From a virus: a stretch of 26,091 nucleotides of DNA. The position numbers and the translations under genes were made by a program. The DNA is taken from IMG/VR virus record IMGVR_UViG_3300030101_004043, positions 307 through 26,397 of that record, one strand, 5' to 3'. The notes beneath the pieces were generated by a model that did no database searches, was not told the origin of the DNA, and was given only the letters and a program-made list of their open reading frames with translations. Of this stretch, positions 8,758-18,100 are shown piece by piece (position 1 is the first letter of the stretch; every line of letters starts with the position of its first letter).

Positions 8758-9453
8758 TTAACTACCTCCTGGGTCTACTGATCTTAAGGGGAGTCGTAAT
8801 ACACCGTCTGCATACTCGTCCCTACGTTTACGTCCCATCTGCTCTTGTGCAAATAATTGCAGAGCTTGCTGAAACTTCTGATCGTATAATTGCATATCTT
8901 GTGTATTTTTCAAGTATGAATATGCTTCAGCAACAGTGCCATACAAAAGAACCTCGGGTGCGTTGTTAGATAGAAATGTTGTAGTGGTGGTTGTCCCCGA
9001 ACCATTACCAATTCTTTGTGGAGTTTCGTCGTACCACATTTCAACTGTATAGGCCACATTTGGAGTGGGTGCCACTATTAATGTTGTTGCATCCCAGTTG
9101 CCCCAATACTTTGGCTTGCCTGTAAAAGTAGTATCGGTGGTGGATCTTTCAACGGAGTACTCGTCCATAAATGTAGCATCTTTTTGTTGTAGCCAAGTTC
9201 TTGTGCCATCCGTCTCGACAAGTTGTAATCCTCTTGCAAAACGAAAACCACCCTCAGGACCACTGACATCTAAGAAAGCATTGTTAGCTTCAAAAGTTGT
9301 TGTTGCGTATCTTCTCTGATCATCGGAATCAACTTCTCTTGCTACTTTGTTTTCTACATTTGTGATGAAAACATTAATGACAGAGTTTGATAAAACATCA
9401 GAAGTAACCTCTGTGTAGTTTCTTACATTGTCTAAAAGTTCAGAATAGTTCAT
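8758..9453 (-). CDS. Head-tail adaptor/connector protein (SU10 adaptor type)
   Basis: 231 residues. The N-terminal helical part MNYSELLDNVRNYTEVTSDV, then VFITNVENKVAREVDSDDQR, leads to a beta portion with TTFEANNAFLDVSGPEGG and PKYWGNWDATTLIVAPTPNV. The C-terminal helix LFAQEQMGRKRRDEYADGVL ends LRLPLRSVDPGGS. This helix-beta-helix arrangement matches phage adaptor proteins that sit under the portal, such as the podovirus SU10 adaptor and related proteins in marine phages. The assignment is from memory. Start overlaps the zinc-ribbon gene stop as ATGA. The terminal PGGS codons contain the Shine-Dalgarno of the next gene. Confidence 0.7.
   Translation of the reverse strand: MNYSELLDNVRNYTEVTSDVLSNSVINVFITNVENKVAREVDSDDQRRYATTTFEANNAFLDVSGPEGGFRFARGLQLVETDGTRTWLQQKDATFMDEYSVERSTTDTTFTGKPKYWGNWDATTLIVAPTPNVAYTVEMWYDETPQRIGNGSGTTTTTTFLSNNAPEVLLYGTVAEAYSYLKNTQDMQLYDQKFQQALQLFAQEQMGRKRRDEYADGVLRLPLRSVDPGGS
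8765..8770 (-). promoter_or_regulatory. Strong Shine-Dalgarno inside the end of the adaptor gene
   Basis: AGGAGG on the minus strand spans the Pro-Gly-Gly-Ser codons that end the adaptor gene and lies nine bases from the ATG at 8755. The same PGGS-stop design recurs before 9779 (GGAGG at 9786-9790), showing that the C-terminal residues double as a ribosome site. Confidence 0.75.
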
Positions 9454-9779
9454 GATATCACCACAGTCACTGTACCAACTGCTGAGGACATTATCAAGTC
9501 ATCTCTAATTGGAGCAGGTTGCATACCAACACTTTCAAAAGGTGTGCTATTAGGAAAACCAACATCAACTATAAGTGGCTCTACTCGATCGGGTCTAGGG
9601 TTTCGCAGTGCTTCAGGGTCGGGTCTTGAATATGGTGGTTCTAATTGTGGGTGTTTAGGTTCGTAACACTCTGGACAAACCAACAAACCGTTCCATTCTT
9701 TTCTTAATTCTAAGTAAGGATACTGATAGCCACAACGATCACAAATAGCTTGTGATTTTACGCCAACTGCAAAAGACAT
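9450..9779 (-). CDS. Zinc-ribbon protein of connector region
   Basis: 109 residues. Two CxxC knuckles, C13-D-R-C16 and C35-P-E-C38, enclose KEWNGLLV and are followed by YEPKHPQ, a treble-clef or ribbon-type zinc site. The middle is proline/arginine-rich (LEPPYSRPDPEALRNPRPDR) and the end is beta-like (AVGTVTVVIS). The gene lies between two connector-type genes, overlapping both (shared base at 9779, ATGA at 9450-9453), an arrangement I remember from podovirus-like marine phages. Probably a minor virion or assembly protein; exact role unknown. Confidence 0.7.
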   Translation of the reverse strand: MSFAVGVKSQAICDRCGYQYPYLELRKEWNGLLVCPECYEPKHPQLEPPYSRPDPEALRNPRPDRVEPLIVDVGFPNSTPFESVGMQPAPIRDDLIMSSAVGTVTVVIS

Positions 9780-11458: not shown

Positions 11459-11758
11459 TTAAATAATTTTTGTAGTTTTTCTTTTGTTTGCCATAACCGC
11501 TCCACATCCTCTGGCTATGCCACCCTTATTAAATTTTGAAACTTTCTTACGGTCTTGTGATATTTTATTAAAATCTATGATACCACCATCAGCTTTTCCT
11601 GAGGGTTTAGGTCCTCTAAAATCTTTTCTCTTTACACCGCTTGGATCTTTAATCTTACCCGCACAAATTTTTGATGCATAGGCGTTTGCATATGCTGAGG
11701 GATAAACTTTGAATTTACGCTTTGCGGCGGCTTTTCCTCTTGGGCATAGTTTTGTCAT
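11459..11758 (-). CDS. Small basic Cys-containing protein (LCPRGKAAAKRKFKVYPSAYAN type)
   Basis: 99 residues. The N-terminal signature LCPRGKAAAKRKFKVYPSAY followed by ANAYASKICAGKIKDPSG is a motif I remember from short proteins of marine phages and nucleocytoplasmic algal viruses. The C-terminal half (GGIIDFNKISQDRKKVSKFN, then KGGIARGCGAVMANKRK) contains a third cysteine and a Gly-rich turn. Net charge is strongly positive, suggesting nucleic-acid or capsid contact. The neighbouring gene on the left encodes another protein of the same general class, immediately adjacent, so the pair is co-expressed. Confidence 0.7.
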   Translation of the reverse strand: MTKLCPRGKAAAKRKFKVYPSAYANAYASKICAGKIKDPSGVKRKDFRGPKPSGKADGGIIDFNKISQDRKKVSKFNKGGIARGCGAVMANKRKTTKII

Positions 11759-11772
11759 TTTTCTTTTTCCTT

Positions 11773-11910
11773 TTAATCCTTCCCGGCTTCATCACCTGTT
11801 GTCTCATCTGGGCTCGGCTGATCGTCATGCACGCACCTCGGACACTCGCACATACATGGTGTCCCTAAAGAACAGTGACAAGAACATCCACATATCTGAC
11901 ATTGTTTCAT
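11773..11910 (-). CDS. Metallothionein-like cysteine-rich mini-protein
   Basis: 45 codons, ATG at 11910 to TAA at 11773. The first 26 residues contain nine cysteines (C4, C7, C9, C11, C13, C19, C21, C23, C26) in CxxCxCxCxC and CxCxCxxC arrays, with one His inside (H12) and one just after (H28), and no aromatic residues. The rest is an acidic hydrophilic tail (DDQPSPDETTGDEAGKD). Such density of CxC and CxxC motifs is characteristic of metallothioneins binding Zn, Cd or Cu clusters. Start overlaps the stop of a 19-codon frame as TAATG, so translation is probably coupled. No family can be confirmed without a search. Confidence 0.6.
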   Translation of the reverse strand: MKQCQICGCSCHCSLGTPCMCECPRCVHDDQPSPDETTGDEAGKD

Positions 11911-11969
11911 TAATGAATTGTACCAATTTCGAAGTCTGGTTCAAATACAATATCCAATTCATCTTCCAT
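11910..11969 (-). CDS. Possible 19-residue acidic peptide upstream of metallothionein-like gene
   Basis: A 19-codon frame (MEDELDIVFEPDFEIGTIH) with AAGGA six bases before its ATG at 11969, which overlaps the stop of the membrane protein gene (TAATG). Its own stop overlaps the metallothionein-like start in the same way. The double TAATG junction and the good ribosome site suggest it is translated, either as a peptide or as a leader that feeds ribosomes to the Cys-rich gene. It is too short for homology arguments by eye. Confidence 0.4.
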   Translation of the reverse strand: MEDELDIVFEPDFEIGTIH

Positions 11970-12199
11970 TAGAATTCCTTATAGTTTTTAATTAAAAACT
12001 CTTCCATCCAAGCCATCTTGTCATCCATTGACTTAAGCTCAGATTTAATAACAGCAATGTCCTGTTGCATTTTTGCAACACTGTCTGCCTTCTTTTCCAC
12101 AGCGTTCAAGCGTTCAGACCACATACCCCATGTCATAATCATAGTTCCGATTAGAACTAAATAAGGTAAAACTGTTTTAATATCTATCTTAATCGACAT
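11969..12199 (-). CDS. Small membrane-anchored coiled-coil protein
   Basis: 76 residues from ATG at 12199 (MSIKIDIKTVL); a TTG two codons earlier is open but less likely. One membrane segment (about 10-27, VLPYLVLIGTMIMTWGMW) follows a short charged N-terminus. The remaining 48 residues are a charged heptad-type helix (ERLNAVEKKADSVAKMQQDI...). Layout resembles the 119-residue protein at 12458-12817 and phage membrane proteins of the holin or spanin class, but no lysis motif identifies it. The start lies inside the overlapping 15-codon Cys-rich frame. Confidence 0.65.
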   Translation of the reverse strand: MSIKIDIKTVLPYLVLIGTMIMTWGMWSERLNAVEKKADSVAKMQQDIAVIKSELKSMDDKMAWMEEFLIKNYKEF

Positions 12200-12231
12200 A
12201 TACAATCCGCATCTGTTTTACAATCACACAT
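12184..12231 (-). CDS. Possible 15-residue cysteine-rich micropeptide
   Basis: Frame MCDCKTDADCICRLR, ATG at 12231, TAG at 12184. A strong Shine-Dalgarno (AAAGGAG, six bases before the ATG) has no other obvious start to serve, since the next gene's ATG at 12199 is 32 bases further on. Four of fifteen residues are cysteine (CxC ... CxC), echoing the metallothionein-like gene 270 bases away. It overlaps the start of the membrane protein gene by 16 bases, so it may also act as a translational leader. Confidence 0.4.
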   Translation of the reverse strand: MCDCKTDADCICRLR

Positions 12232-17583: not shown

Positions 17584-17690
17584 TATTTTTTTCTAATGAC
17601 TTTTTTCAATGTTTTAGCTTGTTTGGCATGTAACTTTGAGGCTTTCTTTAAACCTTTAATTACTCCCTTTATTGCTTTTGTTTTTTTCAT
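17583..17690 (-). CDS. 35-residue lysine-rich peptide
   Basis: ATG at 17690 overlaps the holin stop as ATGA; TAG at 17583-17585 overlaps the next GTG start as TAGTG. The peptide starts MKKTKAIKGVIKGLKKASKL and ends KKVIRKK: about 16 of 35 residues are Lys or Arg, and it could form an amphipathic helix. The exact fit between coupled junctions on both sides supports translation. Probably nucleic-acid- or membrane-active, by composition only. Confidence 0.6.
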   Translation of the reverse strand: MKKTKAIKGVIKGLKKASKLHAKQAKTLKKVIRKK

Positions 17691-18100
17691 TGTGTAATTT
17701 TCTTACTTTTTTCGAAGCTGCGGAGGCCGGCCATTCCGAGCAAGGCCGTGACGAGCGGGAATAAAGTCGACATGTCAAGCTCAGGTAAAGGTGCATGATC
17801 TACACTAAATGCAGCTAAACCAAACATAATAAATTGTTTTAGTACATATTCCCAAAGTATTGCAAGAGCACAACTCATTCCAATAAGAGGTCGCCAGCTG
17901 CGTTGCAGGATACCGCCAATACCAGTGGCAGTGGACTTAGCATCAGCTAAGTTAATGTCCATTTGTTTAGAATTTATTTCGTTCTCTAATTCTTTGAGCT
18001 TGTTTCTTGCGGCAAGCTTTTCCTCTTCTGAGGTATGGACACTGTCGATAACTTTACCGACAGTGTCTACTAAAGATCCGCCTAATAATTTAGATAACAT
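17687..18100 (-). CDS. Holin, three-TM (GTA/phage 3TM holin type)
   Basis: 137 residues. N-terminal charged helix (SVHTSEEEKLAARNKLKELE, about 21-40) followed by NLADAKSTATGIGGILQRSW with R70-P-L-I-G, then membrane segments at about 70-86, 87-100 and 112-128 (LFPLVTALLGMAGL), and a short basic tail. The 'E...A...L..LE..IN..DAKS...SWRP..G...A' pattern matches the three-TM holins found in gene-transfer-agent release modules and marine phages. It would permit endolysin release at the inner membrane; no endolysin gene is visible here. Linked to two tiny genes by overlaps. Confidence 0.8.
   Translation of the reverse strand: MLSKLLGGSLVDTVGKVIDSVHTSEEEKLAARNKLKELENEINSKQMDINLADAKSTATGIGGILQRSWRPLIGMSCALAILWEYVLKQFIMFGLAAFSVDHAPLPELDMSTLFPLVTALLGMAGLRSFEKSKKITQ

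Follow-up and report, generated by a model that had tools for sequence, protein, structure and literature searches.

Does a reading frame of 45 codons, crowded with cysteine codons and lodged in the late region of a phage genome, encode a protein, and would such a protein handle metal? The question arose in a window of 26,091 nucleotides (the whole stretch of DNA analysed here), which is part of a 31,554-base IMG/VR record from an HTVC023P-like podovirus. The portal protein of this phage shares 54% identity over 93% with that of Pelagibacter phage HTVC023P, and membership of the HTVC023P type was further indicated by related portal and terminase families and by a GroES-like late block, the GroES-like gene being Cpn10 in the window and GroES in HTVC023P. 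The reading frame and its immediate neighbours, in the order of transcription, are as follows.

12184..12231, minus strand: micro-ORF of 15 aa with four Cys, MCDCKTDADCICRLR, preceded by a strong Shine-Dalgarno sequence; overlaps the start of the next gene
11969..12199, minus strand: small protein (MSIKIDIKTVLPYLVLIG...) containing a hydrophobic segment; the start was taken as 12199 (TTG at 12205 in the ORF list)
11910..11969, minus strand: 19-aa ORF MEDELDIVFEPDFEIGTIH, with a TAATG overlap with the 45-aa gene
11773..11910, minus strand: gene for a 45-aa Cys/His-rich, metallothionein-like microprotein, ATG start
11715..11828, minus strand: overlapping 37-aa basic gene (MTISRAQMRQQ...), downstream; its ATG takes in the second and third bases of the His28 codon and the base after them (C-ATG)
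11459..11758, minus strand: 99-aa small basic gene, downstream (phrog_27331), used as query for syntenic relatives

Identification of the reading frame

Translation of the 45-aa frame gives MKQCQICGCSCHCSLGTPCMCECPRCVHDDQPSPDETTGDEAGKD, with nine cysteines between residues 4 and 26 (positions 4, 7, 9, 11, 13, 19, 21, 23 and 26), histidines at positions 12 and 28, no phenylalanine, tryptophan or tyrosine, and an acidic C-terminus. This confirmed the nine-cysteine array free of aromatics that the sequence-only reading had described. No other among the 272 ORFs of the window that are 25 aa or longer reaches nine cysteines within 26 residues, the next best having six, and none of 300 dinucleotide shuffles of the window produced an ORF with nine (one shuffle reached eight). 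The 45-aa ORF is real. No break of the frame was seen in seven of seven close relatives, a weak test because these relatives had themselves been found through the ORF or its motif.

Relatives and ligand pattern

Homologues of the 99-aa gene at 11459, of a 119-aa gene and of the capsid gene gave access to 239 distinct loci among the matches listed (best 80 each), a few of them from one contig, and a relative of the Cys gene was carried by 17 of these 239. Viral contigs were also scanned twice with DNA patterns; each scan returned at least 120 stretches, and many further members were gained in this way. A total of 475 sequences contained 194 motif ORFs, of which 178 passed a filter and 161 were distinct nucleotide sequences, the window's own included. 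The 16 ORFs left out by the filter comprised six judged to be members with another start choice or spacing and ten judged to be chance or low-complexity matches. This unnamed phage family of at least 161 distinct sequences is absent from the annotation libraries searched.

The core of the 161 sequences reads CxxCx[C/H]xCHC-x(3-11)-C-x(1-5)-CxCxxCxH and offers 11 potential ligands. Because the pattern scans fixed C11, H12, C13, C19, C21, C23, C26 and H28, and the filter fixed C4 and C7, the constancy of these ten positions was built into the set. No search pattern or filter restricted position 9, and it is His in 122 sequences, Cys in 39 and nothing else in any of the 161, a Cys/His exchange typical of zinc ligands. 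The 17 neighbour-fetched members have Cys at this position in 11 cases and His in six (by-eye count); exceptions among them are locus L084, where Cys replaces the last His, and L186, which is devoid of C19. Codons for Cys and His are mixed synonymously (TGT/TGC, CAT/CAC) in all ten ligand columns counted, and, where free columns were counted (at offsets 1, 2, 4 and 6 relative to the first Cys), no residue exceeds 71 of the 161 sequences. Aromatic residues are missing from 134 of the 161 cores. Small, Cys-rich, built on CxC and CxxC arrays and with few or no aromatics, the proteins display the sequence traits of metallothioneins in the broad sense.

Since 11 Cys/His positions are packed into about 25 residues, with one strict Cys-or-His position and variable residues between the ligands, the product was read as a putative metal-thiolate cluster peptide, and binding of metal appears likely. 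The earlier proposal of a metal-binding, metallothionein-like peptide is supported at sequence level by the 11-ligand pattern, by the restriction of position 9 to Cys or His and by the purifying selection that acts on the core (see below).

An N-terminal four-Cys extension, MC[ED]GCDxLCxKCE, is fused in frame to the core in nine of the 161 sequences, once with a GTG start; the carriers of this module are L184, L341, L343, L362, L426, L435, L454, L464 and L468. In L034, L035 and L231, small proteins such as MLKKIKNKICEIFCKLFGIIPCMCDHECDCKKDKK have a cationic segment first and a Cys cluster last.

Selection along the gene

The gene was divided into two parts for the analysis of substitutions.

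11827..11910, minus strand: conserved core, residues 1-28 (C4 C7 C9 C11 H12 C13 C19 C21 C23 C26 H28), dN/dS 0.12
11773..11826, minus strand: acidic tail, dN/dS 0.93 in the frame of the Cys gene, inside the overlap with the next gene

Both values were obtained from the same eight close sequences, in which the core has a pS of 0.61 and a pN of 0.14, two of the eight having been fetched by pattern and being touched by the fixing of ligands. Within five spacing classes, core dN/dS was between 0.145 and 0.345, values lowered by the search-fixed ligands. When the overlap was read in the frame of the 37-aa gene, dN/dS was 0.16, and it was 0.90 in the remainder of that gene, constraint alternating between frames. 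Homologues of the 37-aa gene also occur without a Cys gene directly upstream. Because the tail is unconstrained in its own frame, the overlap is constrained in that of the 37-aa gene, and the latter also occurs with no Cys gene just before it, the acidic tail is most plausibly a by-product of overprinting. An acidic C-terminus is indeed present, as had been noted, but these values contradict its being a functional feature, and a tail acting as a functional part of the protein was rejected. In subfamilies having such an overlap, the last His codon is itself partly fixed by the other gene because of the overlapping C-ATG start. Tails differ among subfamilies: 49 of the 161 members have an LDEF/LDDF-type tail and 15 a Trp/Lys-rich one, and 49 members end with at most six residues after the last His.

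Neighbouring genes and translational coupling

An ORF similar to the 19-aa one precedes the Cys gene in L038, L040, L045 and L336. The gene had been described as part of a coupled chain with clear start signals; this is true of the TAATG coupling only, because no Shine-Dalgarno sequence of its own was seen before the ATG of the 45-aa ORF. Downstream, the 37-aa gene (11828-11715) shares sequence with the Cys gene at one end and with the start of the following gene at the other. Neighbour clusters of family members include portal, endolysin-like and holin-like genes, and no repressor gene was recognised among the scanned neighbours. A GTA_holin_3TM-like holin is encoded in the same late block of the window (17687-18100, minus strand). 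At 9450-9779 of the window (minus strand), a 109-aa protein matches the zinc-ribbon family PF23551 weakly, below the cut-off.

Such overlaps can be expected of an ORF acting in cis as a translational attenuator or coupler, where ribosome speed over the Cys codons would set translation of the overlapping downstream gene. The TAATG coupling upstream fits this explanation, as does the C-ATG start at His28 inside the ORF, which in 34 of the 161 members opens a downstream ORF no shorter than 25 aa. Cysteine-responsive short ORFs have moreover been reported in mycobacteria, where polycysteine leader ORFs are reportedly likewise short, Cys-rich and upstream of a gene. However, sensing of codons needs neither the ligand spacing, nor His 12, nor the Cys/His rule at position 9, all of which, in distinction to the mycobacterial leaders, point to a function at the protein level. 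The core is under amino-acid-level selection and no CATG is found at that site in 101 of the 161 sequences; an attenuator is thus improbable.

A high thiol content and the endolysin-like and holin-like neighbours could also suggest a thiol/redox or disulfide-rich peptide, either a scavenger or a molecule oxidised at lysis. CxC arrays, however, favour metal binding, neither the Cys/His alternation at position 9 nor the His residues suit disulfides, and no signal peptide was seen in the window member. This explanation was considered very unlikely.

Distribution among phages and bacterial genomes

The family is accessory and is found in a minority of related phages. A Cys gene lies directly upstream of the homologue of the 11459 gene at five of the 77 loci with at least 250 upstream bases (best 80 matches listed), and profile searches detected the family in three of 20 chosen phage records searched whole, namely four named phages and 16 viral contigs that the neighbour searches had yielded. 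The isolate HTVC023P (MN698239.1, L570) has an unannotated homologue between gp44 and gp45 (E 2.8e-5 by profile). An in-frame ATG at 29014, after GAGGA and 23 codons upstream of the first core Cys, opens a 54-aa protein, MTWLQKIAIKCSIRWKKRKNKTFCFECHHDCHCDKICPKCSCYTCNNIEIKYYD, which shares DNA with the 3' part of gp44 in a different frame; its layout is a Trp/Lys-rich segment followed by the core, with Asn replacing the last His. The whole records of HTVC027P, 023Pt_psg01 and DSL-LC04 gave no family match in profile searches. The window peptide alone had no match in Pfam, in PHROGs or among 50,697 phage records; when four other members were compared with the phage records, HTVC023P was found at E 0.05, a match confirmed by profile, and the remaining matches (E 4 or worse) were disregarded.

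The Trp/Lys-rich segment ahead of the HTVC023P core, the recurrence of tail types within subfamilies, and the portal, endolysin-like and holin-like genes in the neighbour clusters would all suit a structural zinc module. Two or three Zn would then serve folding only, and the LDEFW-type or Trp/Lys-rich tail or N-terminal segment would dock the module onto a membrane or onto a protein of phage or host, modulating for instance lysis, RNA polymerase or assembly. Structural zinc fingers, however, usually have a lower ligand density than 11 positions in about 25 residues. Furthermore, the lack of aromatics in most cores and the free columns not dominated by one residue argue against such a module, as do the unconstrained tail of the window member and the 49 members with hardly any tail. 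A structural role is possible, albeit rather unlikely.

A pattern scan of bacterial genome contigs returned 95 stretches, among which a six-frame check by eye recognised one clear member (L558); most other frames listed were repeats or chance-like. L558 is a Rhodobiaceae-binned contig with a phage portal (53%) and a terminase (68%) matching those of the window, and the single match among 289 sampled Alphaproteobacteria genomes was on the same contig. Because both bacterial-genome matches are one contig with phage portal and terminase, the family was treated as phage-borne and a cellular origin was rejected. Three further candidates (L514, L537 and L563), in which the pattern's second half occurs but the CxxC half is missing, were judged to be chance matches. 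The same verdict was reached, less surely, for L552:1-132 (plus strand, Actinomycetales-binned), which combines the second motif half with a differently spaced pair of Cys, its frame running open to the sequence edge. Window proteins had no matches in L537, L552 and L563.

The window also contains three 2OG-Fe(II) oxygenase-like genes, and supply of metal to these enzymes had been put forward as a possible role. A Cys/His site of the present kind would be expected to prefer Zn(II), Cd(II) or Cu(I) to Fe(II). Among the 20 chosen phage records, three carry the family, eight carry PF13640 (seven above the curated cut-off) and two carry both, the PF13640 match being below cut-off in one of these two. 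There being no signal of co-occurrence in this set, the oxygenase link found no support. 2OG-Fe(II) oxygenases and ferrochelatases have been described for the HTVC023P-type phage group, and a word search of the main text found no mention of metallothionein, cysteine or zinc (PMC9599517).

Comparison with known metallothioneins

None of 16 family members matched the bacterial metallothionein profile PF02069 at E<=10, a setting at which HMMER filters drop most matches above 0.1. The window record had no match to it either; the same search was positive in four of 14 control genomes, one of them exceeding the cut-off. PF12809 (Metallothi_Euk2) gave no match at E<=10 with the window member or the window record and weak matches with two of the 16 members (best E 0.0019), which probably reflect composition. 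Nothing convincing was found in NCBIfam (E 0.0094 to a Cys-repeat family in two of the 16 members), in PHROGs searched with family members (best E 0.37) or in a sequence search of the PDB. An AlphaFold2 model computed with no metal had a mean pLDDT of 73.1 and a pTM of 0.40, with block means of 79-83 over residues 1-30, and Foldseek found no PDB or fold match for it. These missing fold and profile matches do not exclude a metallothionein because metal is absent from the models and the protein is so small.

SmtA has a Cys9His2 ligand make-up, and its spacing differs from that of the phage family. SmtA and BmtA (PF02069), as well as the Pseudomonas PflQ2 metallothionein, are likewise small and very Cys-rich with His ligands. 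Four Zn are bound by SmtA (PMC10612145), and PMC7387436 describes Zn3Cys9His and Cd4Cys9His clusters for the PflQ2 protein, close in count to the nine Cys and two His of the window member; the same source gives MymT as a bacterial metallothionein from Mycobacterium. In contrast to SmtA, BmtA and the PflQ2 protein, the present family is phage-borne, has its own spacing (CxxC-x[CH]x-CHC ... CxCxxCxH) and has a core of about 25 residues, as against the 51 positions of the PF02069 profile.

On balance, these peptides are probably phage-specific Zn(II)-thiolate/imidazole microproteins working like bacterial metallothioneins, their metal binding being predicted. The 25-residue core would fold around a Zn(II)-thiolate/imidazole cluster supplied by eight to ten Cys and at least two His in the 11 ligand positions, with a load that may be about 3-4 Zn(II) per molecule, Cu(I) or Cd(II) being possible instead. 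Such very small proteins, encoded in the late structural region, would capture and retain a small number of Zn(II) ions, or of Cu(I) or Cd(II), and pass them on in the late phase of infection, while host proteins are being turned over. Expression late in infection and a role in buffering are what we infer, and the weakest step is the one from binding to buffering. The lack of PF02069 and structure matches, the differences in tail among subfamilies and the carriage by a minority of phages stand against this explanation. The differing tails could have an adaptor or targeting role.

Four-Cys micro-ORFs

Even shorter Cys-rich ORFs of a similar style, 12-17 aa with four Cys, are present in this phage lineage and were encountered in the viral contigs. 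The type MC[DN]CKTDxDC[IV]CR (15-17 aa) was present in at least 119 stretches, and 36 of its 38 distinct sequences had a Shine-Dalgarno sequence; its sites, which overlap the start of a small membrane-type protein, include window 12231-12184 (minus strand), L012:496, L090:1088, L002:3753 and others. A second type, MCExC[NG]GEC[VI]CR, with Y, F, L or H at residue 4, has 12 aa and four Cys and was found in 93 stretches, L091:5954, L097:357 and L100:1066 among them. Its 34 distinct sequences have a Shine-Dalgarno sequence in 25 cases and are TAATG-coupled in 25. Most residues of these micro-ORFs were fixed by the search patterns; at the free or half-free positions of the 12-mer, residue 4 is Y or F in 32 of 34 sequences and residue 12 is R in all 34. 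The 12-mer sequences show synonymous-site variation and differing genes downstream. None of 104 loci with the 12-mer showed a larger family member in the available stretch (regular expression search).

Short Met-Cys ORFs with at least four Cys, scanned in the window and in loci up to L474 with related loci counted repeatedly, were preceded by a Shine-Dalgarno sequence in 32 of 109 cases. The same scan with another residue instead of Cys gave 1/60 for Tyr, 10/365 for Phe, 5/98 for His, 3/99 for Asn, 1/26 for Asp, 7/151 for Ser and 0/5 for Trp. The 12-mer is possibly among the smallest conserved phage genes, and the free 12-17-aa peptides, putative metal binders, could rank with the smallest gene products that bind metal. 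A broader scheme, in which marine podoviruses possess metal-handling microproteins of their own, not borrowed from hosts, is conceivable and, in our opinion, unlikely: the 11-ligand peptide, the fused four-Cys module and the free four-Cys peptides would form a Zn/Cu relay late in infection of metal-poor ocean bacteria.

Significance for phage biology

No report of a phage-encoded metallothionein was found in the literature searched, which included few subscription papers and no preprints and was covered by searches partly aimed elsewhere. If the proposed function is true, buffering of metal would join the things that phages do to their hosts (cf. PMC12753301), and the annotation libraries used would prove to overlook short genes of this kind.
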